Below, in pieces: positions 28,514 through 45,213 of a DNA stretch of 64,000 nt; the first letter of the stretch is position 1, and the number at the start of each line of letters is the position of its first letter. Source of the DNA: Actinomycetes bacterium (lineage in GTDB: Bacteria > Actinomycetota > Acidimicrobiia > Acidimicrobiales > Palsa-688); assembly GCA_021799445.1 (NCBI GenBank), contig JAJZAM010000001.1, positions 30,634-94,633 on the forward strand. Reading direction: 5' to 3'. Below the pieces are notes generated by a model that saw only the letters and a list, made by a program, of their open reading frames with translations, was not told the DNA's origin and searched no databases. The translations under genes were made by a program, and so were the position numbers.

Positions 28514-30196
28514 ATGTCTGCTCCTACGAACCACAGAATCCTGCGCAGTCCCGTGGGGACAGAGATGTCCTGCAAGACCTGGGAAGCGGAGGGCGCGCTG
28601 CGAATGCTCCACAACAACCTCGACCCTGAGGTGGCCGAGCACCCCGACGAGTTGATCGTCTACGGCGGTAACGGCAAGGCGGCTAGGAACTGGAGCAGCT
28701 TCGACGCGATCACGGCTTGCCTTAGAACCCTAGAAGCCGACGAGACGCTCCTGGTGCAGTCGGGTAAGCCGGTTGGTGTCCTGCGCACCTGGGAGTGGGC
28801 ACCAAGAGTCCTGATAGCCAACTCGAACCTCGTACCGCAGTGGGCCACGTGGGAGGAGTTCCGCCGGCTTGACTCACTAGGCTTGACGATGTACGGGCAG
28901 ATGACCGCAGGCTCGTGGATCTATATAGGCTCCCAGGGCATTCTCCAGGGTACCTACGAGACTTTCGCAGCCGTCGCCGAGAAGCGCTTCGGTGGGACCC
29001 TGGCAGGCACGCTGACCCTGACAGGCGGTCTCGGAGGGATGGGAGGAGCCCAACCGCTCGCCGTGACCATGAACGGCGGTGTTGTCATCGCCGTCGACTG
29101 CGATCCCAGCCGCATCCGCAGGCGGGTAGAGACCCGCTACCTCGACGAGCACGCCTCCTCACTCGACGAAGCCGTGGAAAAAGCGATGATCGCCCGAGCC
29201 ATAAGGCGGCCACTGTCGATCGGGGTTCAAGGCAACTGCGCCGAGGTCGTGCCGGAGCTGCTTCGCAGGTCCGTTCCGGTAGACGTCGTCACCGACCAGA
29301 CGTCCGCTCACGACCCGCTCAGCTACCTTCCGGTCGGGATCGCCTTCGAGGACATGGCCGACGCGCGCCGCGCCGACCCTGCTGGCTTCACCCGCGCCGC
29401 GAGAGAGTCGATGGCGCGCCACGTCGAGGCGATGGTCGGCTTTGCCGACGCAGGAGCAGAGGTCTTCGACTACGGCAACTCGATCCGCGCCGAAGCCCAA
29501 CTGGCCGGCTACCACCGAGCTTTCGACTTTCCTGGGTTCGTCCCGGCTTATATACGCCCGCTGTTCTGCGAGGGCAAAGGCCCTTTCCGGTGGGCCGCTC
29601 TTAGCGGCGACCCTCACGACATAGAGGTAACCGACCGTGCGGTGCTCGAACTTTTCCCCGACAACGATCCTCTCGCCAGGTGGATCCACAGCGCTGCTGA
29701 GAAAGTGGCCTTCCAGGGTCTGCCCGCCAGGATCTGCTGGCTGGGTTACGGAGAGCGAGACAAGGCCGGTCAACGCTTCAACGAGCTGGTCGCCAGCGGA
29801 GAGCTCGCCGGGCCGATCGTGATCGGCCGGGACCATCTCGACTGCGGATCCGTAGCGTCGCCGTACCGCGAGACCGAAGCGATGCTCGACGGGTCCGACG
29901 CGATAGCGGACTGGCCTCTGCTTAACGCCATGGTCAACGTGGCCTCCGGTGCGTCGTGGGTTTCGATACACCACGGCGGCGGCGTCGGCATGGGACGTTC
30001 CATACACGCCGGGCAAGTCTGCGTGGCGGACGGCAGCTCTCTAGCAGGCGAAAAGATCGCAAGGGTGCTGACAAATGATCCGGCGATGGGGGTGCTGCGC
30101 CACGCGGACGCCGGCTACGACACCGCAAAGCAGGTCGCGTCGAGTCGCGGGGTGAAGGTCCCCGTATCGCACACCGCAGATAGGGTTCGGCCGTGA
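28514..30196 (+). CDS. hutU: urocanate hydratase
   Basis: 560 aa; [58 protein letters not shown]. Confidence 0.96.
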
Positions 30197-31491
30197 GCTA
30201 CGCGCAAGGCGACGATTTCGAGGAGATGTGGACGTCTCTTGCGCCTCTCGGCAGGGCCCCCGACGGCAGCTACCAGCGTCTCGCATGGAGCGACGCGGAG
30301 CTTTCCTGCCGGGACTGGTTCCGCCGCCAGGCCCGACTGCGGAACATGCTCTTAGACGAGGACCGCAACGGGAACCTGTGGGCGTGGTGGGGTGAACCCG
30401 GAGCTGGAGCGATCGTCACGGGCAGCCACCTAGACAGCGTCCCCGGTGGAGGGGGCTTCGACGGGCCGCTCGGTGTCGTGTCGGCGTTCGCCGCCGTGGA
30501 CCGTCTCGCTCGACGTTACGGCCAGCCGCCCAAGCCGCTGGCCGTAGTCGACTTCGCCGACGAGGAGGGCGGACGCTTCGGCGTGGCGTGCGCAGGCAGC
30601 CGCCTCATGACAGGGCAGGTGGACCCGTGCGCGCTCCTCGCCCGGACGGACCGTTCGGGCGTCACACTGGCCGAGGCCATGACAGCAGCCGGTTTCGACC
30701 CGAGCCGCTGCGGAGCTGATCCGGGGCGGGTCTCGAAAATAGCCGCGTTCGTCGAGCTTCACATCGAGCAGGGTCGAACCCTCGACCACCTTGGTGCGCC
30801 CGTCGGGGTCGCCGCTGCCGTCTGGCCGCACGGACGGTGGCGTTTCGACTTCACGGGGCAGGCAGACCACGCTGGCACGACACGCATCGTCGACCGGCGC
30901 GACCCGCTGATCCCAGCCGCGCACCTGATCCTCGACGCGCGCGCGCAGGCCGAAGCCGCCGAAGCTCTCGCTACCGTCGGACGCGTCGAGGTGAACCCGG
31001 GAGCCACCAACGCAGTGGCGTCGCGAGCGTCGGTGTGGCTTGACGCTCGCGCCCCGTCCGCTGAAACTGTCCGCAACCTCGTCGAGTCGATCCGGGTCGC
31101 GAGCGTGCAGCGTTGCAGCCACCACCGCGTGGCCTTGGTGGCCTCCGAGGAGTCTTGGAGCGACGGTGCGAGCTTCCCCGCCGCCCTGCAGGAGCGTCTC
31201 GTGGCGTCTGTGAGGGCGGTCCTGGGTGACGTCCCCAGGCTGACGACCGGGGCTGGGCACGACGCCGCGGTGCTCGCAGCCCAAGTTCCGACCGCCATGC
31301 TGTTCGTGCGCAACCCGACGGGCGTGAGCCATGATCGAGCCGAATCCGCCAGCATGCAAGACTGCCTCAGAGGGGTGGACGCTCTCAGCGCGGTCCTGGC
31401 AGCGCTGCTCGACGACGCCGGCGGCTTGTCGGACGTTCCGGCGCCCGCCGCCGACCGAGCTGGATCGCCGAGCGCGGTGGCGACAAGATGA
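30193..31491 (+). CDS. M20-family amidohydrolase (allantoate amidohydrolase / N-carbamoylase-like), candidate N-formylglutamate deformylase
   Basis: [56 protein letters not shown]; inside hut operon. Confidence 0.88.
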
Positions 31492-33023
31492 TCGTCGAGC
31501 TGTCCACGTCAGGGTTGCGTCCCGAAGACGTCCTTGCGGTCGCGCGGGGCGGTGCCCTGGTCGAGCTGAGCCGGGAGGCGGTCGCCGCCATGAGCCGCTC
31601 ACGCTTGCGCGTCGAGGAGCTGGCGGCCTCACAGACGCCCGTGTACGGGGTCTCTACCGGCTTCGGGGCTTTGGCGACACGTCACATCCCCCCGTCGCGA
31701 CGCAAGGACCTTCAGCGCAGCCTGATCCGCTCGCACGCTGCGGGCACCGGAGACGAGGTGGAAGTCGAGGTGGTACGCGCGATGATGCTCCTCCGCTTGG
31801 CGACTTTGGCGTCGGGGCGCACAGGCGTCAGGCCGTCGGTGGCGGCGTCATACGCGTCTGCCCTAAACGCGGGTATCACCCCCAAAGTTCCAGAGTACGG
31901 GTCTTTGGGCTGCAGCGGGGACCTGGCCCCCCTAGCCCACACGGCCCTATTTATGATGGGAGAAGGACAAGGCCGTGACCGCGACGGTGTGCTGCGCCCG
32001 GCTGATGAGCTTCTATGCCTGGCGGGGATCGAACCGCTCGAGCTCGAAGAAAAAGAAGGCCTGGCTTTAGTCAACGGTACTGACGGCATGCTTGGCATGC
32101 TGGTCATGGCGGTGAGCGACATGTCAACCCTTTGCAAGACGGCTGACCTTACGGCGTCGATGAGCGTCGAAGCGCTCCTTGGAACTGACCGTGTCTTCGC
32201 CGCGGACCTTCACGCGCCTTTGAGACCCCATCCAGGCCAGGCCGCAGCGGCGGACAACATGTGGCGTCTGCTGCGACACTCTCAGATCGTCGGGTCGCAC
32301 CGGGTGGGCGACACACGAGTCCAGGACGCGTACTCGCTGCGTTGCGCCCCTCAGGTGTCCGGGGCTGCACGCGACACGCTGTCGCACGCTTCGATGGTCA
32401 TCGGGCGAGAGCTCGCCGCTACCGTCGACAACCCCGTCGTGCTTCCCGACGGACGTGTAGAGTCCAACGGTAACTTCCACGGCGCTCCGCTCGCCTACGT
32501 GGCGGACTTCTTGGCGATCGTAGCCGCTGATCTCGCGTCGATGAGCGAACGGCGCTGCGACCGGATGCTAGACCCCGCCCGGTCGCACGGGCTTCCGCCT
32601 TTCCTCGCCGACGATCCGGGAGTCGACTCTGGTTACATGATCGCCCAGTACTGCGCTGCGGGCATCGTCAGTGAGCTAAAGCGGCTCGCTTCCCCGGCGA
32701 GCGTCGACTCCATACCGAGCTCGGCCATGCAGGAGGACCACGTGTCGATGGGCTGGGCGGCCGCCCGCAAGCTTCGCAGGTCACTGGACGGCTTGCGCCG
32801 GGTCGTCGCCATAGAGCTGCTCGTAGCCGCACGGGCTTTGGACTTGCGGGCTCCGCTGGAGCCCGCCCCGGCAACAGGCGCAGCCAGGCGAGAGCTGCGT
32901 TTGAGCGTTCCGGGACCGGGGGCCGACCGCTGGGTTGCGCCGGAGGTCGAAGCCGCCGTGCAGGCCGTCGCGTCGGGGCGTGTGCTCAAAGCGGCGGAAG
33001 CCGTCTGCGGGGAGTTGGGATGA
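31488..33023 (+). CDS. hutH: histidine ammonia-lyase
   Basis: YGVSTGFGALATRHI, MIO triad ASG context GSLGCSGDLAPLAH, LVNGTDGM. Confidence 0.95.
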   Translation: MIVELSTSGLRPEDVLAVARGGALVELSREAVAAMSRSRLRVEELAASQTPVYGVSTGFGALATRHIPPSRRKDLQRSLIRSHAAGTGDEVEVEVVRAMMLLRLATLASGRTGVRPSVAASYASALNAGITPKVPEYGSLGCSGDLAPLAHTALFMMGEGQGRDRDGVLRPADELLCLAGIEPLELEEKEGLALVNGTDGMLGMLVMAVSDMSTLCKTADLTASMSVEALLGTDRVFAADLHAPLRPHPGQAAAADNMWRLLRHSQIVGSHRVGDTRVQDAYSLRCAPQVSGAARDTLSHASMVIGRELAATVDNPVVLPDGRVESNGNFHGAPLAYVADFLAIVAADLASMSERRCDRMLDPARSHGLPPFLADDPGVDSGYMIAQYCAAGIVSELKRLASPASVDSIPSSAMQEDHVSMGWAAARKLRRSLDGLRRVVAIELLVAARALDLRAPLEPAPATGAARRELRLSVPGPGADRWVAPEVEAAVQAVASGRVLKAAEAVCGELG

Positions 33024-34447
33024 CCCCCCGATCTTGGTGGGCTGAGATGGCATGGCTCGGAGGACCCGACGCGGCAAGCGGTGTTCGCATCGACTGCGAC
33101 GCAAACGGGACCATACTTGCGGTCGAGCCGGGAAGCCCACGCCCGGAAACCTCCGGCGTCGGGATCCTGCCGGGGCTGACGGTCCCAGGCCTCGTCAACT
33201 GTCACTCCCACGCGTTCCACCGGGCGTTGCGGGCCTGGACCCAGTCTGGAGGCGGCGACTTTTGGACGTGGCGTAGCCTCATGTACCGAATCGCCGAGCG
33301 GATCAACCCGGACGCTTACTTGGAGCTCGCTACGGCTGTCTACGCGGAGATGCTGCTGGCCGGCGTCACCACTGTGGGCGAGTTCCACTACCTGCATCAC
33401 GATCAAAGCGGCCGTGCCTATGAGAACCAGGCGATGGAAGCAGCGATAGTCGAGGCGGCACGCGTCGCGGGAATCCGGATAACCGTGCTCGACGCCTGCT
33501 ACCTGACGGGGGGCGTCGCCCCGTCAGGGGAGGTTGTCACGGGCCTCGGGGCCGACGTTGGGACGCCAGCGGCCGTTGCGCTTCAAGGGGCTCAGAGGCG
33601 CTTCAGCGACGGCAGCGTCGAGGGCTGGCTGTCCCGCCTGGGCGAAGCGTCGCGATCTCTCAGCGGACCCACGGTGCGCTTCGGGGCTGCGGTGCACTCA
33701 GTCCGGGCGGTGCCCCGAAACGCTCTCGCTGAGATAGCAGAAGCGGTGGCGCCCGCGGGAGCGCTCATCCACGCGCACGTCAGCGAGCAGCCGGCCGAGA
33801 ACGCAGCCTGCGAGCGTGCCTACGGGCTCACCCCCACGCAGGTCCTGGCCGAAGCGGGCCTGCTCGGACCTGCCTTCACCGCTGTCCACGCCACCCATCT
33901 CGAAGCCGGGGACGTCAAGCTCCTCGGATCGTCGGGGTCGTCGGTGTGCATGTGCCCGACAACCGAGCGTGATCTCGCCGACGGGATCGGGCCTACCGTC
34001 GCCCTCCGAGGCGCCGGGGTGCCGCTTTGCCTCGGAAGCGACTCGCACGCGGTGATAGACCTCCTAGAAGAAGCGCGTGCCGTCGAGCTCGACGAGCGCC
34101 TGGCCAGCGGTCGCCGCGGATCCCACGACCCGGCGGATCTGCTCCAAGCTGCCACCCGAAACGGCTCGGCCTCTTTGGGATGGCCCGAGGTCGGGCGGAT
34201 CGAAGTGGGCGCCCAGGCTGACCTTTGCAGCTTCGACTGTTCGAGCGTCGAGATGGCTGGCACCTTCGGACCTGGGGGTACCAATGCGCCGGCCGCCTTG
34301 ATCTTCGCTGGCCGCGGTAGTTTGGTACGCGACGTGATCGTAGCCGGCAGGACGATCGTGAGAGACGGCCATCACCTGGGTGTTAATGACGTGGCAAGGC
34401 GAATGTCAGACGCGATCTCCGGGGTCATGGACCGTGGCGAAAGATGA
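33020..34447 (+). CDS. hutF: formimidoylglutamate deiminase
   Basis: Amidohydrolase fold ([74 protein letters not shown]). Confidence 0.92.
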
Positions 34448-35697
34448 GCAACCGACACGACACGCCAGACGTTCGGCGTCGAGAGGATACCAACTGCACG
34501 GGGGAGGGCAACGACGGAGCTAGCTTCGTGATCACAGGGATCGGCGAGTTGTGCGACGGCACGGGGTCGCCGCCCGCCGAAAACATGGCCATGGTCGTCG
34601 AGTCCGGCCGGATCGCGTGGGTCGGTCCGGAGACAAACCTGCCCGAGGCGTCGGGGGCCGCACTCCTAGACGTCGACGGAAGGGCTGTCATTCCAGGCTT
34701 CGTCGACAGTCACACGCATCTCGTTTTCGCCGGGGACAGAGCCCGCGAGTGGGAGGCGCGCATGGCGGGACACCCCTACGGCGCCGGGGGGATCGTCAGA
34801 ACCGTCGAGGCGACGCGCGCCGCGACGACGCAGGAGCTGTCGAGGCGGGCGGCGGGCCTGGCGGCCGAAGCGCTCGCCGGGGGCACGACGACCATCGAGG
34901 TAAAAAGCGGCTACGGCCTCGACGTTGCCAACGAAGCGCGTCTGGTTCGCGTCGCAGCGACGCTCACCGACGAGGTGACGTTCCTCGGAGGTCACGTGGT
35001 CCCCCCGGAGTACGCCGGGCGCTCTGACGACTACGTGAGCCTGGTGTGCGGGCAGATGCTGGAATCCTGCCGTTCGCAGTGCCGCTGGATTGACGTGTTC
35101 TGCGAAGAGGGAGCCTTCGACGCGGACCAGGCTAAAGCGGTGCTCGAAGCTGGGCGGGAAGCGGGTCTTGGTCTCAGGGTGCACGCAAACCAGCTTCGCC
35201 ATGGCCCTGGCGCGTCGCTGGCGGTGGCCGTCGGTGCCGCGTCGGTGGACCACTGCACCCATCTGGCCGACTCCGACGTGGAAGCCCTCGCTGGATCGTC
35301 GACGGTAGCGACGCTGCTACCGGCGGCTGAGTTCTCTACCCGTTCGGCCTACCCCGATGGCCGGCGGCTCCTCGACGCCGGGGTGAGGTTGGCGCTGGCT
35401 ACCGACTGCAACCCCGGAACGTCTTTTACCACGTCTATGAGCTTCGTCGTGGCTTTGGCGGTGCGAGAGCTCGGGATGACCGTAGCCGAAGCGCTTCACG
35501 CCGCTACGGGCGGAGGCGCTGACGCACTGCGCCGCGACGACATCGGCAGGCTCCAGCAGGGCAAGAGAGCGGACTTCTCAGTCCTCGACGCGCCGAGCGT
35601 GTCGTGGATCGCCTACCGTCCGGGAGTGCCGTTAGTAAGTGCCGTGTTCCGACTGGGAGAGCTCGTAGCCGGAACGTCACCCGGGTTGCACCCGTGA
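34444..35697 (+). CDS. hutI: imidazolonepropionase
   Basis: [59 protein letters not shown]. Confidence 0.95.
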
Positions 35698-36626
35698 GCT
35701 GTCGCGAAGAGCCCCTGCCGGCCCAACCGGCCCAACCGGCCTCTGCTGGCGGGCTAGTTTTGCCGGCCCCGGCCCCGGCCCTTTCACCTGGCGAGGAGCT
35801 ACGTCACCTCGCCTCTGGCACCAAACTGAGCCCGACGTCGCGAAGGATCCTCGCTTTGTTGCTGGAGCACCCCCAGCAGCTCGCATGGTTGACGGCGCGG
35901 GAGCTCGCAGAGCGGGTCGGCGTCAGCCAACCTTCGGTTAGCCGTCTCGCGGCGTCGCTCGGCTTCGACGGCTACGGTGCCCTCCGGGACCACCTTCGAT
36001 CCGTGCTCGTCGACGACGTGGCGTCTCCATGCGGGTCCCGGGGTGAGACACACGCCCAGGCGGTGGTCGCTGAAGAAGCCAGACACGTCGCAGAAACAGC
36101 CAGGATCGTAGACGGCGTCGTGCAAGCCGAAGGAATCGCCGCAGCTCTTGTCGCTTCGAAGCCGCTGGTAGTTGCAGCGGTCCGGGCGTCCGCCTACCTG
36201 GGTGAGTATTTCACCTATCTAGCTGCCAAAGTGCATCCCCATGTGCTGTCGGTGGCGCAAGGAGACTCCAAATCTTTAGACGTACTGTTAGGGGCCAAGG
36301 CGGCCGGTGCGGATGTCCTGCTGGTCGTTTGCATGCCCCGTTACCCGTCTGAGATGATCCGCATGATCCAGTCGGCGGCAGGTATGGGGTATCGGATCGC
36401 GTTAGTGTGCGACCGGGCGATGCCTCCTATACCGGGCGTGGAGCCCACGTGGAGCCTTGCGCTCCCGGTCGGCTCAGGGTTGACGTTCGACGCTCACCCG
36501 GCCGTGCTCGTAGCGTTGGGGCTGCTGGTGGACGCTATGTGCGAAGCCGATCCGCTGACCGCCGAGTCCCGCATGGAGATGCTCGACGAGGCAGCGGAGG
36601 CTTCGGGAACTTATTGGACCGGCTGA
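35694..36626 (+). CDS. MurR/RpiR-family regulator, likely hut regulator
   Basis: GTG start overlapping hutI stop (GTGA); [59 protein letters not shown] and SIS-like domain. Confidence 0.85.
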
Positions 36627-36631
36627 GGGTT

Positions 36632-38389
36632 TCAGCGCCGCCCGTCGGGTTCGCCAGGAGACAACGATGCGAGTATGGCCGCTGCTGCGACCTTGCCCTG
36701 GGCCATCGCTTCGACGACTGTCGACGGTCCGACCAGGGAGTCCCCGGCGAACCAAGTGTGCTTACCCCGCGGGTAGGCGGCCTGGGCTTCGCCCTTCTCC
36801 CGCCCGAGCGCCAGGAGACCCACCGGTTGGTATCTAGCGGCGGGCGGAGCCGGGTTCGCTAGCAGCCCGCTGGCCAGCCAACGGCGGTCGGGGAAGCCTT
36901 GGGTCTTCTTGGCGACGGGCACATCGCCTCCCAGCTTGGCTATATCAGAGTCGATTCGATAGCCCATTGCCATAACTACCATGTCGACTTGTATCCTCGA
37001 CGTCTTGGATTCGAGCACCTTGGGACGTTTAGAAGCTTTGTGCTGCACGGTCTCGGCGAGCTCGGCTTCGCTGACGTGGCCGTCTTCGCCGAGCAAACGG
37101 CGCAGCGTGGTCGAGAAGCGCACCTCCACCCCTTCGGTGGTCGCTTCGTCCAGCTCGTCGGGGCGCACCGGCGCGAAGCGGCGGTCCATCCAGTCGATGC
37201 AGGTGGCTTGAGCGCCGAGACGCCGAGCGCTGCGAGCGACGTCCATGGCGGTGTTGCCGGCTCCGAGCACCAGGACTCTGGCAGGCCTCGTGTCGGCGGG
37301 AGCGGAGGCGCTGAGCGCTTTGGGAGCTAGGGCGGCCATGGGAGTGCCGCTGGCGATAGCCAGACGGGCCGCTTGGAGGAACTCGGTGGCGTCGCAGACG
37401 CCTTCGAGGTCTGACCCGGGGACCGGTGCTCGCATAGCTACGCTAGCGCCGGCTGCTACGACAACCGCGTCGAAGTCATCAGCGAGCGACTTGAGCTCCT
37501 CGGCGTTCACGTTGTGGTTCGTGTGCAGGTGCACACCGGCTTCGAGCAGGTGTTCCCAAGGCCGGCGAGCGACCTGCTCGGGCAGCGTGAAGTCGGGTAT
37601 GCCCCATATGAGAAGCCCTCCGGGTGTGGAGTCGCGTTCGAACACGGTCACGTCGGCTCCACCGGCGCGCAGCGTGGCGGCTGCTGCGATGCCCGCAGGA
37701 CCGGACCCGACTATCGCTACCCGGGGCGCCCGGTCGGTCTTTGCGGCTTCGGCCACTTCGATGGGCGGGACGGGAGCGTTGTCGGCGATGAAGCGCTCCA
37801 GGGCGCCGATAGCGACAGGGCTGCTCCCGGCGAGGGACCAACTGCAGGACCCTTCGCATTGCACCGCCTGATCGCAGACCCTCGAACAGATGTCAGGCAG
37901 GTAGGTGGTGCGGCGAAGCACTTTGTGAGCTTCGTCGAGGTCGCCTGAACGTAACGCTCGGATGAAACCCGGGATGTCGTTGTGTGCTGGGCAGCCGCGA
38001 ACGCAAGTCGGGTCCGGGCAGTCGAGGCAGCGGCTCGCCTCGTCGAGGGCTTCGTGCCAGTTTGTTATGGCCCTGCGAGTCTCGCTTCGGTCGAAGGTGA
38101 GCTGATCAGGATGTACGGTCTCAAGGCTCACCCTGGCGGCTACTAGCTGGGGCCCGTCCACGAATATCGCCGAGTAGGGGCACGTGCGCTCGCACTGGCG
38201 GCATCCGACGCAGAGCTGGTCGTCGCCGACGGCGGTCCAAGTGACCGGGTCCATGTGCAGGGCCTGGGTCGGGCATCTCACGATGCACTCCTGGCAGCCG
38301 GCGCAACGGTCGATCAGAACGTGGATAGTCGGCGAGAGCATGCTCTCCTTTACAGGCGAGGAGAGATCAGATGGAGCAGTGATTGTCAT
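36632..38389 (-). CDS. GltD-like FAD/NAD(P)-binding oxidoreductase with N-terminal 2x[4Fe-4S] ferredoxin domain
   Basis: CAGCQECIVRCP, CVGCRQCERTCP, CLDCPDPTCVRGCPAHNDIPGFI, AIVGSGPAGIAAAATLRAGGADVTVFE. Confidence 0.88.
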   Translation of the reverse strand: MTITAPSDLSSPVKESMLSPTIHVLIDRCAGCQECIVRCPTQALHMDPVTWTAVGDDQLCVGCRQCERTCPYSAIFVDGPQLVAARVSLETVHPDQLTFDRSETRRAITNWHEALDEASRCLDCPDPTCVRGCPAHNDIPGFIRALRSGDLDEAHKVLRRTTYLPDICSRVCDQAVQCEGSCSWSLAGSSPVAIGALERFIADNAPVPPIEVAEAAKTDRAPRVAIVGSGPAGIAAAATLRAGGADVTVFERDSTPGGLLIWGIPDFTLPEQVARRPWEHLLEAGVHLHTNHNVNAEELKSLADDFDAVVVAAGASVAMRAPVPGSDLEGVCDATEFLQAARLAIASGTPMAALAPKALSASAPADTRPARVLVLGAGNTAMDVARSARRLGAQATCIDWMDRRFAPVRPDELDEATTEGVEVRFSTTLRRLLGEDGHVSEAELAETVQHKASKRPKVLESKTSRIQVDMVVMAMGYRIDSDIAKLGGDVPVAKKTQGFPDRRWLASGLLANPAPPAARYQPVGLLALGREKGEAQAAYPRGKHTWFAGDSLVGPSTVVEAMAQGKVAAAAILASLSPGEPDGRR

Positions 38390-38402
38390 TGTCGTATTCC
38401 TC

Positions 38403-40004
38403 TCAAGAAGCTGCGTGCATGATCACGTACAAGAACCCGGCAACTCCCGCTGACACGAGGACCATGGCGATCCCGGTCAGCTCGGCGGCGACCGGGCGGG
38501 TCGCCGAAGGGCGGATGTCTCTGAGCGCAATCTTGTGAGTCGCCCACAGCGACGCGACCATCCCAAGCCCGACGACGACTACTTGGGCTATCACGATCTG
38601 TGGGTTGGTGAGGATGTGGGTGTGATAGAGGCTGGAGTGGGTGGAACCCGCGCCGAACCACGAACCGATCGCAGGGATGATGCGCAGCGAATGCTTGAAG
38701 AACTTCGGCAGCTGGCGGGCCAAGTAGTCCGCGCCGACTACGGGGATGAGACCGTAGGCGACAGGGACGAAGAACGAGCGGAACTGGCTGGCACGGTCCA
38801 CGAAGGACTTGGAGCGGGCGAGCGCCGCGAGCCTGTCGGTGACGGGAAGCTGGGCTGGGTCCTTCATGAAAAGCCTGCTTGGTATCCATGCGAGCCCAGC
38901 GACGAGGAAGCCCAGGCCGACGATCATTCCCAGGTAGTCGATCGGATTTGGGTAGGGGCCGATGTGGGTGACCCGGTTTAGCCAGTTGTCCAAGCTCGCG
39001 TAGGCGCTGGTGGCGTTGATCTGCTGGTAGAGGACGAGGCCGAACAGGAACGCCACCGCCCAGGCCAGGTCTGCCCGGCGCCGCTGCGGGGCTATCACCG
39101 ACTTGAGCGGCGGTTGGATGAAAAGCCCGACGTTACCCGAAGGGCAGCCTTTGTAGCATTCGCTGCACAGCCCGCAGGTCAGGTTCGAGTCGGCGCTGCC
39201 TGGCCAGGTGTACCACGGGCAGCCGTAGCCTTCCTCCCCGCCTCGCATGCAGTCCTTGGTCTGGCATGTAAGGCACACCTCCCGGTCCCGCGTGCGGAAC
39301 CCTGCGGCCGATCCCATCGCACCAACACTGCCGATAAGAGCTGACAAGGGGCACAGGTAGCGACAGAAGGTCCGCCGTTCGAACACCAAGAACACCGCCA
39401 CTGCGCTAGCGACGATCCCGATGACCATCAGGCCTGTGTCCGCGGGGTTGCCCGGCCCGGCGATGTTGAAGCGCTCCTCGATCCACGTGAGCCCGACGAA
39501 GGTGCCGACGGACAGGAGCAGCCCGTACCGGGCGATCGGCTCGGGTAGCTTACGCCCGAGCCCGAGGGTCTTCTGTGTGCGCTGCCAGAAGGTGCGCCGT
39601 TGGAGCCATTCGGCGAACCCGCCGAACGGGCACATTGCGCACCAGCCGCGCCCGACGACGACCATCAAGACGAAAACCAGGCAGAACCAGATGTACCAGG
39701 TGATCGCCGTTGCGAAGTTGAGGCCGGGTACGACCGTGCCCAAGATCCCGAGGAAGATGACCGTCCAGAAGATGATCTGGTTCGGCAGGATCAAAAGGAA
39801 CTGGAACTTGCGGTTGCGGACCAGCTTCGCCACCCGCGGATTGCGTGTCAGGTCCCAAGCTTTAGGGGGGTCGGTCGGCGCGAAGTGCTCGACCAAGCCC
39901 TCACGGCTCGGGGGTCGCAGCCTGACGGTCACGGGCGCTGGGCGTGCCAGCGGTGGTGCTTGCGCCGCTTGGGGACGCTGGTCATCGGGGGCGACGATCG
40001 TCAT
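38403..40004 (-). CDS. membrane polyferredoxin (NapH/NosR-like 4Fe-4S protein)
   Basis: Multi-TM with GWCAMCPFGGF, CRYLCPLSALIG, CLTCQTKDCMRGG, CGLCSECYKGCP. Confidence 0.85.
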   Translation of the reverse strand: MTIVAPDDQRPQAAQAPPLARPAPVTVRLRPPSREGLVEHFAPTDPPKAWDLTRNPRVAKLVRNRKFQFLLILPNQIIFWTVIFLGILGTVVPGLNFATAITWYIWFCLVFVLMVVVGRGWCAMCPFGGFAEWLQRRTFWQRTQKTLGLGRKLPEPIARYGLLLSVGTFVGLTWIEERFNIAGPGNPADTGLMVIGIVASAVAVFLVFERRTFCRYLCPLSALIGSVGAMGSAAGFRTRDREVCLTCQTKDCMRGGEEGYGCPWYTWPGSADSNLTCGLCSECYKGCPSGNVGLFIQPPLKSVIAPQRRRADLAWAVAFLFGLVLYQQINATSAYASLDNWLNRVTHIGPYPNPIDYLGMIVGLGFLVAGLAWIPSRLFMKDPAQLPVTDRLAALARSKSFVDRASQFRSFFVPVAYGLIPVVGADYLARQLPKFFKHSLRIIPAIGSWFGAGSTHSSLYHTHILTNPQIVIAQVVVVGLGMVASLWATHKIALRDIRPSATRPVAAELTGIAMVLVSAGVAGFLYVIMHAAS

Positions 40005-40107
40005 CTGGTACCTCTCTTAGAACACTATTCCTATGGTGTAGCACTAAACGTAGATAAGACTAGCTAAGGTGATGACTTATGTCAAGTCTTCAGCTATACT
40101 TATTGTT

Positions 40108-41187
40108 GTGAATATGACGTTGTCGAAACGGGGGGACTACGTGGTCCGCTCGGCCCTGTCTCTCGCCAGGGCCTATCCGAGCGGGGAAGCGCGCAAAATC
40201 CGCGAAGTGGTGGCCGAGATGGGCGTGCCCCAGACCTTCGCATCGCAGATACTCGCCGACCTGGTACGGGCCGGTTTGGCGACCTCCAAGGCCGGCAAGG
40301 ACGGCGGATACCGTCTCGCCTCTCCTCCTGAACAGGTGAGCCTCGTCGAGGTGGTCGAAGCCGGCGAGGGTCCGCTGCGAGCCGAGAGGTGCGCACTAGG
40401 AGAAGGACCGTGCCGTTGGGACGCCGTGTGCCCGCTGCACGAAACGTGGCGTTCGGCGACCGAGGCCCTGCGCGAGGTGCTGCGCTCGACGTCCCTCGCC
40501 GACTTGGTGCGCCGCGACGAAGACATAGAAGCCGGTCGGGTGGAACGCCCGAAGGACTCCCACAGGGCGGGAGACCACAGTGTGGCGGTCGCCGACTCGA
40601 TACAAGTCGAAGCGGGAGTCCCGCAGCTTCTAGCCGTTCTCAGACGCGAACAGGTCTTTGCTACCGCTTTGGTCGGTGCGTTCGGCGAGGTTGACGAGTT
40701 GCGCAAGCGGATCCTCGGTGATCCAGCACCGTGGTTGCCGGTGCACGTGGCCTCGTCGACTTCTCTTGGACGAGCCGAAGGCGCGGATACGCTCGGAACT
40801 CGAAACGCAGAGGACGCCGCTCAGCTGGGCGTCTCGTTTGAGGCTTCCATGCCGGGGGGTTTGGGCGCTCACGGCGAGATCTCAATAGCCGTCGTCGCTT
40901 TGGACCCCGAGCGCTGCGAGTTGCGCGCCGGCGCGAGGATACGACTTCCCGCGCTTGACGTGTCAGTCGCGCCAGGGCCTACGCTGGGCTTGGAGGTCAC
41001 GCAATCGGGAACGGAAGCTGACCAGCTTCCCCTCGGGGACCGTCTAGCTCAGGTTCTCGTCAGGACAGTGCTCAGACGGATAGCCAGAGTTGCTGACGCC
41101 GCCGCGAGCCAGGGTCGTTCGGTGTCGACCAGCGCGCCGGACCGCCACCCCCGTGGTGGCAGGCCACGAAAAGCTGCTGTCAGCTAG
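40108..41187 (+). CDS. Rrf2-family Fe-S regulator with long C-terminal extension of unknown function
   Basis: GTG 40108 / ATG 40114 start; MTLSKRGDYVVRSALSLARAYPSGEARKIREVVAEMGVPQTFASQILADLVRAGLATSKAGKDGGYRLA, cysteine cluster ERCALGEGPCRWDAVCPLH; ~200 extra C-terminal residues. Confidence 0.85.
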   Translation: MNMTLSKRGDYVVRSALSLARAYPSGEARKIREVVAEMGVPQTFASQILADLVRAGLATSKAGKDGGYRLASPPEQVSLVEVVEAGEGPLRAERCALGEGPCRWDAVCPLHETWRSATEALREVLRSTSLADLVRRDEDIEAGRVERPKDSHRAGDHSVAVADSIQVEAGVPQLLAVLRREQVFATALVGAFGEVDELRKRILGDPAPWLPVHVASSTSLGRAEGADTLGTRNAEDAAQLGVSFEASMPGGLGAHGEISIAVVALDPERCELRAGARIRLPALDVSVAPGPTLGLEVTQSGTEADQLPLGDRLAQVLVRTVLRRIARVADAAASQGRSVSTSAPDRHPRGGRPRKAAVS

Positions 41188-41212
41188 GCGGCTGTGAGTA
41201 ATATCTGCGCTT

Positions 41213-42031
41213 GTGGGTAAGGGCACTGCGGTTGACTGGGACGAGCTGGCTCGTAGGCTGCCTGTCCGTCCGTCGACGGCAACACGACTCTTCGAGCTGA
41301 TCGACGACCCGGACGCCTCGCTTTCCCAGTTCGCTGAGATCGTCGAGATTGATCCTGTCCTTTCCACCAGAGTACTGCGGATGGCCAACTCGGCAGCCTA
41401 CGGAGGTCGGGGAGGCGTTGCGTCTGCCACTAGGGCCGTGATGATGCTCGGCGCTTCGGCAGTTCAAGCGATAACCGCCGCGGCCGCCTTCCCGCTACTA
41501 TCCGACGGCGTAGACCTAGGACCGGACACATTCTGGCCTCACGCCATGGAGGTTGGCGCCGCGGCGTCTACCATCGCGGCCGAGTTGGAGGTGGGTGCGG
41601 GGGAGGCGTTCACCGCCGGCTTGCTCCACGACATCGGCGCCGTCCTGCTGCACCTTCGTGATCCAGCCCTCTACGCTGACGTGGTGCGCCGCGGCGGGGA
41701 GCGACTCCTCGACCACGAACGTTCCGCCTTCGGCACCGACCACCCCGAAGTCGGGGCGGCGGCCCTCGCCAAATGGGGTTTCCCTAAGAGCCTCGTCGAA
41801 GCGGTGCGGGACCACCATCTTCCGCTCGTAGGCGCCGGAAAGTTGACTAAGGCGGTTGCTATCGGAGAAGCCGCGGTCGCGGAGGCCGTCGGACTTTCCT
41901 GCCACGAGGTTTCCAGGTCCCTTGAGGAAGTCATCGACGAATGCCGCCTCTGGGTGAAACCCGCTCAGGTTCTTCGAGCCACCCAGAAGTCGTTCGATCG
42001 GGTCAGCACCAGGCTCGGCGCGAAGATATGA
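41213..42031 (+). CDS. HDOD-domain protein
   Basis: LFELIDDPDASLSQFAEIVEIDPVLSTRVLRMANSAAYGG, TRAVMMLGASAVQAI, AGLLHDIGAVLL. Confidence 0.88.
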   Translation: MGKGTAVDWDELARRLPVRPSTATRLFELIDDPDASLSQFAEIVEIDPVLSTRVLRMANSAAYGGRGGVASATRAVMMLGASAVQAITAAAAFPLLSDGVDLGPDTFWPHAMEVGAAASTIAAELEVGAGEAFTAGLLHDIGAVLLHLRDPALYADVVRRGGERLLDHERSAFGTDHPEVGAAALAKWGFPKSLVEAVRDHHLPLVGAGKLTKAVAIGEAAVAEAVGLSCHEVSRSLEEVIDECRLWVKPAQVLRATQKSFDRVSTRLGAKI

Positions 42032-43341
42032 CCGCTTTGAGAGCGCTCGCCGAACGAGAGACTGAGCGTCTAGAACAGTTTCGCAACTCGGACCGGGCCC
42101 AGCTGATGATCCGGCTCGCTCACACCGAGTGCCTCTTAGAACTCGCCCGGCTGTCCGTGCACGTGACCGATGTTTCCACCTTCTCGGAGGCGGCGGTGTC
42201 CATCGTCGACCAGTTCCTGCCAGTCCGGTGGAGCCAGCTCAGCTGCGAGATAGTCGGCGTGCCTCCCATATCGGTTCGGCGAGGTGACGGAGCCGACGGG
42301 CAAACGGCGGGGGGACTTCCGCTAGGAGCGCTTTGCAGCCGGCTGGCCCTCGGCGATCAGGGATCCGGAGTCCTGACGTGTCTTTTCGAGTTTCCCGACC
42401 TCGGGTCGCAGGAGTTGGTCGACGCCGTCAGCGAGCAGGTAGCTTCCGGATTGCTCATAGTGTCGGAGTCCGAGCGCATCCGCCGCCAGGCGGCGCTCGG
42501 GGACGCTGCGAGGCTCATCCACGGGCTGGGAGACGAGCCGACCGGGCCGGACCTGCGAGACCTCGTCGAGGCCATGTCCTACTTGCCGAAACTGTCCGGG
42601 GTCAACTTGCGGATAACGCATCCTGCGGTGGGAGGCCACATAACTCTCGCTTCGGGTCAAGATCCCCAAGAGCAGCTGCCGGTGCTGGTACTGCCCGACG
42701 GCACGATAGAAGCGGGCGTGGCTTGGGCGGTCCCTCCACAACCTGAGGATGAAAAGACCGTGACCGACATGATCGGGCTGCTCGCCGCAGCGATCACTCG
42801 CGCCGCGGAACGCCAGCGCCTCCTCGCCGAGGCTCAGACCGACCCGCTGACAGGCGTCGCCAATCGACGACACGGCATCTCGGTCCTGAACCGCGTTCTC
42901 AAACTGGCGGAGATGTCCGACGACTACGCATGCGTCGTCTACTTGGACCTTGACAACTTTAAGCAGGTAAACGACACGTTCGGTCACGCAGCCGGTGACG
43001 ACGTGCTGCGAAGGTTCTCCGATCTCCTCCAAGGAAGTGTCCGAAAAGCGGACACGGTCATACGGATGGGAGGGGAGGAGTTCATGGTCGTCTGCCCCGG
43101 CATGAGCCAAAGGGAGGCTCTGCGCGTGAGCGAGGCGATCGTGTCAGGCTGCGTCGCAGCGTGCGCGAGCCCGCTCGCCCCGGGATGGGAGCAGAAGACC
43201 TCGATCGGGCTGGCGGTGTACCCTCTCGCAGCCCGGGACGCCGAAGCGTTGATGAAAGCTGCTGACATGGCGTTGTACGAGTCCAAAGGCAAAGGCGGCA
43301 ACACGGTGAGCGCTGCGGCCGAGCTTCGCTCGAAGCTATAG
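42028..43341 (+). CDS. diguanylate cyclase (GAF-like N-terminus + GGDEF)
   Basis: ATG 42028 overlaps HDOD stop (ATGA); DPLTGVANRRHGISVLNRVL, I-site RKAD five residues before GGEEF (RKADTVIRMGGEEFMVV). Confidence 0.9.
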   Translation: MTALRALAERETERLEQFRNSDRAQLMIRLAHTECLLELARLSVHVTDVSTFSEAAVSIVDQFLPVRWSQLSCEIVGVPPISVRRGDGADGQTAGGLPLGALCSRLALGDQGSGVLTCLFEFPDLGSQELVDAVSEQVASGLLIVSESERIRRQAALGDAARLIHGLGDEPTGPDLRDLVEAMSYLPKLSGVNLRITHPAVGGHITLASGQDPQEQLPVLVLPDGTIEAGVAWAVPPQPEDEKTVTDMIGLLAAAITRAAERQRLLAEAQTDPLTGVANRRHGISVLNRVLKLAEMSDDYACVVYLDLDNFKQVNDTFGHAAGDDVLRRFSDLLQGSVRKADTVIRMGGEEFMVVCPGMSQREALRVSEAIVSGCVAACASPLAPGWEQKTSIGLAVYPLAARDAEALMKAADMALYESKGKGGNTVSAAAELRSKL

Positions 43342-44595: not shown

Positions 44596-45156
44596 TCAGC
44601 TTCCCAGCCAGGCCGGGGCGCGTTCGAGAAGGTACTGGCTGACAGCGAGAGCCTTGTCGAAAGTCTCGCAGAGCAACTCCTCGCCGGCTAAGACCCTGGC
44701 GAGGGACACTTGCTGGCGGGCGACGATCGTTATGCGCCGCTCTGCGGGATCGGTCGCGGAAGCGTAGCTGTCGATCGCCGAGGACTCCAAGGGCAGCTCT
44801 ATGCCCCCTATGCCAGCCAGGTCGATGGCCAGGCGGAGGAGATCCGGACCCTGCGGCAGGGGGGGAAGACCCCAGGTGAACGTCAAGGGAAAGTGGAAAG
44901 TGTCAGGGGGGTCGTCACCGTCGGGCAGATCCACCACGACGTCCTCGAAAGCGAGCAGCACCCTCGGGTCGACCTCCAACGCCAGGTGTAGGTCCAAGGG
45001 GCCGTTGCAGGCCTCCTCGGGGTGCACGTCGACCTCCCAGGCTTGGCGCAGCGAGTAAGTCTCCACGAAGTGGCGTTCGTCGTGCACGTGGAACCCGTGG
45101 TCCACCGCATGGTCTTTAAGCTCGGCTACGTAACCAGCGACGTCGATGACCGCCAT
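44596..45156 (-). CDS. conserved hypothetical protein
   Basis: ORF 44596..45162, likely start MAVIDVAGYVAEL at 45156; compositional coherence. Confidence 0.65.
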   Translation of the reverse strand: MAVIDVAGYVAELKDHAVDHGFHVHDERHFVETYSLRQAWEVDVHPEEACNGPLDLHLALEVDPRVLLAFEDVVVDLPDGDDPPDTFHFPLTFTWGLPPLPQGPDLLRLAIDLAGIGGIELPLESSAIDSYASATDPAERRITIVARQQVSLARVLAGEELLCETFDKALAVSQYLLERAPAWLGS

Positions 45157-45213
45157 GCACACGACGATACCGGGACGGCGGGACTTCCAGCGACCGGATT
45201 CCGCTAGCTTGCC

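Follow-up and report, generated by a model that had tools for sequence, protein, structure and literature searches.

A probable three-gene redox module with a long Rrf2 regulator, and an adjoining HDOD-diguanylate cyclase pair, in Acidimicrobiales

A 64,000-nucleotide stretch of an acidimicrobial genome (the window) carries five adjacent genes encoding an Fe-S flavoprotein, a membrane polyferredoxin, a divergently transcribed long Rrf2 protein, an HDOD protein, and a diguanylate cyclase (DGC), and the question it raises is which of them belong together. The preliminary description of the locus proposed that one Fe-S sensor jointly controls an electron path and c-di-GMP, with Rrf2, HDOD, and DGC forming a functional operon. 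The open reading frame list and Pfam place all five genes, with the domains it named, where it had put them (Table 1). Comparison with related genomes points to a different grouping. The explanation that we consider probable is a core redox module of three genes, namely, the polyferredoxin, the GltD-like flavoprotein, and the divergent long Rrf2, which would be the module's own Rrf2-SRPBCC regulator, with HDOD-DGC as a separate two-gene unit.

Table 1. Genes and proposed operator sites of the locus, in window coordinates
Feature	Coordinates	Strand	Details and basis
GltD/AegA-like Fe-S flavoprotein	36632..38389	-	585 aa; Pfam, alignment, PDB relatives
Membrane polyferredoxin	38403..40004	-	533 aa; Fer4_5, alignment, hydropathy
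O2, proposed Rrf2 operator	40029..40051	.	TCCTATGGT-GTAGC-ACTAAACGT; 11/14 matches; 25 bp from polyferredoxin start
O1, proposed Rrf2 operator	40079..40101	.	ATGTCAAGT-CTTCA-GCTATACTT; 11/14 matches; overlaps Rrf2 -10
Rrf2-SRPBCC regulator (putative)	40114..41187	+	357 aa; start corrected from 40069
HDOD protein	41213..42031	+	Pfam; outside conserved module
Diguanylate cyclase (DGC)	42028..43341	+	Pfam, RKAD I-site, GGEEF; listed ORF from 41941; outside conserved module

Conservation of the core and its electron path

A scan of named genome contigs yielded 206 relatives of the polyferredoxin, from which 80 loci were kept, almost all of them from MAGs labeled Acidimicrobiales, Acidimicrobiaceae, or Actinomycetes/Actinobacteria. 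With the window counted, 78 of 81 loci have a GltD-like gene accompanying the polyferredoxin, and 67 of 81 have an Rrf2 gene of the long or a related type. Across 61 relative genomes, the long Rrf2 and the polyferredoxin occurred together in 21 and were both missing from 39; Rrf2 was never found alone, and the single genome with the polyferredoxin alone is 61% complete (Fisher p 2e-15, a value that ignores shared ancestry). Within the phylum, the long Rrf2 was found only in members of the same order, and the best Rrf2 matches outside the order end at about residue 150, nearly all of them being short reading frames. Related polyferredoxins that lack the flavoprotein partner are found here and there in other classes. 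Conserved gene order and adjacency, co-occurrence, and dyads at both promoters (see below) thus uphold, at the level of sequence, the earlier proposal that a dedicated Fe-S-type Rrf2 is tied to a two-gene NAD(P)H-to-membrane path. Nothing describing the module or linking Rrf2 with a polyferredoxin was found in the titles and abstracts of the literature searched.

The flavoprotein consists of an N-terminal 2x[4Fe-4S] domain followed by Fer4_20 and Pyr_redox_2 domains (Pfam). Its alignment contains 16 invariant cysteines, enough for four [4Fe-4S] clusters, together with sites for FAD and NAD(P), and its relatives in the PDB are DPD, Nfn, and GltD. The Fer4 dicluster, Fer4_20, and Pyr_redox core is the same as that of AegA-, GltD-, NfnL-, and DPD-type proteins, but the window protein scores under every equivalog cutoff (276.5 versus 471.75 for GltD) and is paired with a membrane polyferredoxin; the neighboring genes examined included none for a glutamate synthase large subunit. 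Of the 70 flavoprotein homologues measured, 55 end in a C-terminal tail of 110 aa or more, which is recognized as a flavodoxin (Flavodoxin_1) at locus L106. The window flavoprotein is without the flavodoxin-type domain of most homologues, and two versions of the electron path therefore exist.

The polyferredoxin contains about nine transmembrane helices, judged from hydropathy, 13 cysteines that are invariant in the alignment, and the Fer4_5 domain (PF12801). Fer4_5 motifs among transmembrane helices are held in common with NapH- and NosR-type polyferredoxins, from which the window protein differs in gene context and in scoring far under the NapH/MauN cutoff (22.5 versus 213.05). A search by sequence found no related solved structure. 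A cytochrome b/b6-type protein, fused or split, adjoins the module in six loci (L032:2771-4636; L103, L112, L114, L130, and L131), and the window genome has its homologue elsewhere, on contig C229.

In the proposed path, the flavoprotein would oxidize NAD(P)H and relay the electrons via FAD and as many as four [4Fe-4S] clusters to the polyferredoxin, which would exchange them with a membrane acceptor. The acceptor is probably the quinone pool, favored because cytochrome b/b6 genes lie nearby in several loci. The same chain could operate in reverse, with quinol-derived electrons entering through the polyferredoxin and reducing NAD(P)+: the chemistry of GltD-like proteins is reversible, and many of the hosts appear from their names to be MAGs of the acid-mine or iron-oxidation type. 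Such reverse electron flow would need an uphill drive, however, and no energy-coupling subunit was seen, so that we regard it as unlikely.

The adjoining HDOD-DGC pair

The DGC has the attributes of a diguanylate cyclase, with a GG(D/E)EF site, an RxxD I-site, and a PF00990 match of 131 bits; the GGEEF and I-site, reported as intact from the outset, lie at residues 377 and 368, respectively (RKAD-x5-GGEEF). The overlap of this gene with the HDOD gene is 91 bp as listed, probably a start-site artifact, and shrinks to 4 bp (ATGA) with a start at 42028. This ATG is the most likely start, because homology to an independent homologue in genome G008 begins near there. In G008, the HDOD-DGC pair (48% and 45% identity) lies far from that genome's module.

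Joint control of the electron path and c-di-GMP as a functional unit did not survive comparison across genomes. In its favor, HDOD follows Rrf2 on the same strand after 25 bp, no separate HDOD-DGC promoter was found, and the five-gene order is kept in the sister genome G001; however, HDOD-DGC lies beside Rrf2 in the window and G001 only and in none of the other loci. The congener G002 is decisive for the arrangement as a conserved unit, which it rules out. There the order is hutF-hutI-RpiR-HDOD-DGC-SDR, with HDOD-DGC directly between the RpiR and SDR genes; homology to the window continues as far as the RpiR stop and resumes at the HDOD start, the two genes being no more than about 95 bp apart. 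A different contig of G002 carries the polyferredoxin and Rrf2 genes, and a gene for a fused cytochrome b/b6-type protein comes next after Rrf2. We therefore hold a functional Rrf2-HDOD-DGC operon under one Fe-S sensor to be improbable. Judged from gene order, two modules have recently come together to give the five-gene unit, and read-through from Rrf2 into HDOD-DGC across the 25-bp gap is possible in the window genome and G001.

The module lies beside hut genes in no locus other than those of the window and G001, and the simplest history therefore has the module entering the space between RpiR and HDOD in the ancestor of these two genomes, so that HDOD-DGC would have become its neighbor there. 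Neither a target duplication nor a mobile element was seen at the proposed insertion, and loss in G002 may be the alternative. In the window, the redox module seems to have been inserted into the 3' side of a histidine utilization cluster at 28514-36626 (hutU, an amidohydrolase gene, hutH, hutF, a HutI-like amidohydrolase gene, and an RpiR regulator gene). Farther along, at 44596-45162 on the minus strand, a 188-aa protein with no Pfam match is 99% identical in G001, its neighbors mostly being 74 to 95% identical. The apparent redox/c-di-GMP operon, produced by juxtaposition, is a caution against inferring function from gene order in a single genome.

The signaling genes next to the module vary by lineage: HDOD-DGC is found in two genomes, and 26 of 81 loci, as well as f22 genomes, have a HisKA_3 kinase, a NarL-type regulator, or both. 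This suggests that the module is often wired to local signaling, but c-di-GMP is the version of a single lineage and its presence may be accidental. Among the individual cases, a PAS-containing HisKA_3 histidine kinase and a NarL-type response regulator stand beside the module at L171:4979-7128, L107, L120, L128, and others (families f1 and f22). In three genomes (L044, L045, and L047; e.g., L047:4846-6147), the neighbor is a protein of the methyl-accepting type that has a zinc-binding CZB domain.

Operator dyads at the two promoters

In 33 divergent intergenic regions, a conserved block is present just upstream of the Rrf2 ATG. The block is a 23-bp dyad of 9-5-9 form, ACGTNNAGT-N5-ACTNNACGT, that was matched at 11 or more of 14 positions in 32 of the 33 regions versus 0.37 expected from dinucleotide shuffles, and in many of these regions a second copy lies about 50 bp away. 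These regions also bear on the Rrf2 start, which is most likely ATG 40114 rather than GTG 40069, because the 45 bp from the GTG on contain the promoter/operator block conserved at the 33 loci; MTLSKRGDY, the usual N terminus, fits the same ATG. As the motif was drawn from these regions, a fairer test is provided by another set of 31 loci with no divergent Rrf2 start recognized within 600 bp, although in some of them a divergent Rrf2-like gene had escaped the start pattern. Of these 31 loci, 26 have the dyad upstream of the polyferredoxin versus 0.23 expected, counts that are not independent, the loci being related. It was mostly absent (3 of 23) upstream of long Rrf2 genes that were not recognized as divergent from a polyferredoxin.

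Both window copies are imperfect (Table 1); the -10 element that O1 overlaps is TATACT, at 40095-40100. The occurrence of the dyad at the Rrf2 promoter, beside the polyferredoxin start, and in the test loci makes the link from Rrf2 to electron transfer well supported. A dimer of the regulator would bind the two dyads, which cover both promoters, and would thereby control its own gene and the electron path.

The dyad could instead be the site of a NarL-type response regulator, or of another Rrf2, since several loci have a response regulator rather than Rrf2 divergent from the polyferredoxin and contain the dyad as well. However, no close relative of the kinase is encoded in the window genome (best match, 30%), which nevertheless has both dyads, one of them on the Rrf2 promoter, and the size fits Rrf2, the NsrR operator consensus likewise being 23 bp (PMC9338935). 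We give this assignment little credence and keep the long Rrf2 as the candidate binder.

A genome-wide regulon was sought with an extended O1 pattern allowing two mismatches, which gave 12 matches versus 13 for the reversed control and thus no enrichment. A dyad search of the window genome found four other places, one in a promoter-like position, before a gene for an R2-like/AurF-like di-iron protein on contig C100 (L208:131-1309). That the module feeds this di-iron oxidase/oxygenase as part of the same regulon is very unlikely: its dyad is the best other one in the genome (13/14), and 10 of 80 loci have a homologue within 10 kb of the module, but orthologues show no clear conservation of the dyad in their upstream regions, no close orthologue was seen in G002 and most module genomes, and a single one-mismatch site in 3 Mb is near chance.

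The Rrf2 regulator and its C-terminal extension

The winged-helix domain of the regulator matches PF02082 with 104.9 bits (cutoff, 30). The cysteine triad noted at the outset is present as C93-x6-C100-x5-C106 and is joined by H109 (x2 beyond C106) and by D8 in the same N-terminal domain; the pattern C-x6-C-x5-C-x2-H recurs in 61 of 62 Rrf2 sequences. An Fe-S cluster would be bound at this Cys3(+His/Asp) site and would respond to redox, NO, or iron status. In pairwise alignment, D8 and the three cysteines match those of NsrR, D8 falling on Asp8, and H109 matches the IscR histidine; the operator size is also that of NsrR. The first cysteine gap is x6 rather than x5, however, and the curated family scores are far under both cutoffs (NsrR, 47.5 versus 182; IscR, 65 versus 207.55). 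The best Foldseek match of the domain is RsrR of Streptomyces venezuelae, an Rrf2 protein that is a [2Fe-2S] redox sensor (PMC5015018). RsrR resembles the window system in having two inverted-repeat sites in a divergent promoter region and a redox/NAD(P)H theme (PMC5015018), but its sites are of 11-3-11 form, its targets number in the hundreds, and it lacks a C-terminal domain, whereas the window protein has 9-5-9 sites, a target that appears to be local, and, in addition, a probable SRPBCC-like domain.

The extra residues of Rrf2, left unassigned in the preliminary description, are real and widespread, with 57 complete long forms in loci L055 to L134 besides that of the window. Structure prediction gave the topology b-aa-bbbb-a with good confidence (mean pLDDT of 83 for the whole protein; 85, with a pTM of 0.78, for the domain alone), the putative SRPBCC-like domain lying at about residues 157 to 338. 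The Foldseek matches listed for the domain alone were of the SRPBCC kind throughout (ZhuI, PYL, and COXG; E 2e-5). The window extension itself has no Pfam match; Polyketide_cyc2 (PF10604), the sole Pfam family recurring among the extensions of the 62 relatives checked, matches 20 of them (best, 1.3e-5). The predicted fold, the Foldseek matches, and these relatives make a divergent SRPBCC/START-like domain the most likely identity of the extension, and the poor superposition on SRPBCC structures (TM of at most 0.53) would make it a divergent or open member. Matches of the C-terminal profile to CFA/I fimbrial proteins were judged spurious, as neither the models nor Pfam agree. The extension is shortened in the Acidimicrobium ferrooxidans-like locus L161, and the G006 Rrf2 is cut at residue 157. 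No description of an Rrf2-SRPBCC fusion was found in the parts of the literature consulted.

SRPBCC/START domains are a class that binds hydrophobic ligands, and the extension may add a second input of this kind, such as a quinone or a lipid. The analysis offers a probable domain identity for a so far unassigned Rrf2 extension, an uncharacterized electron-transfer pair conserved in many acidimicrobial genomes, and a defined regulator-operator-target set open to in vitro testing. More speculatively, and with appreciable doubt, the regulator could be a dual-input transcription factor in which an Rrf2 Fe-S redox sensor is fused to an SRPBCC-like domain binding a membrane-derived hydrophobic molecule, e.g., menaquinone. 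If so, it would read both the state of its cluster and that of the quinone pool and adjust accordingly the expression of an NAD(P)H-membrane electron-transfer complex not described before.
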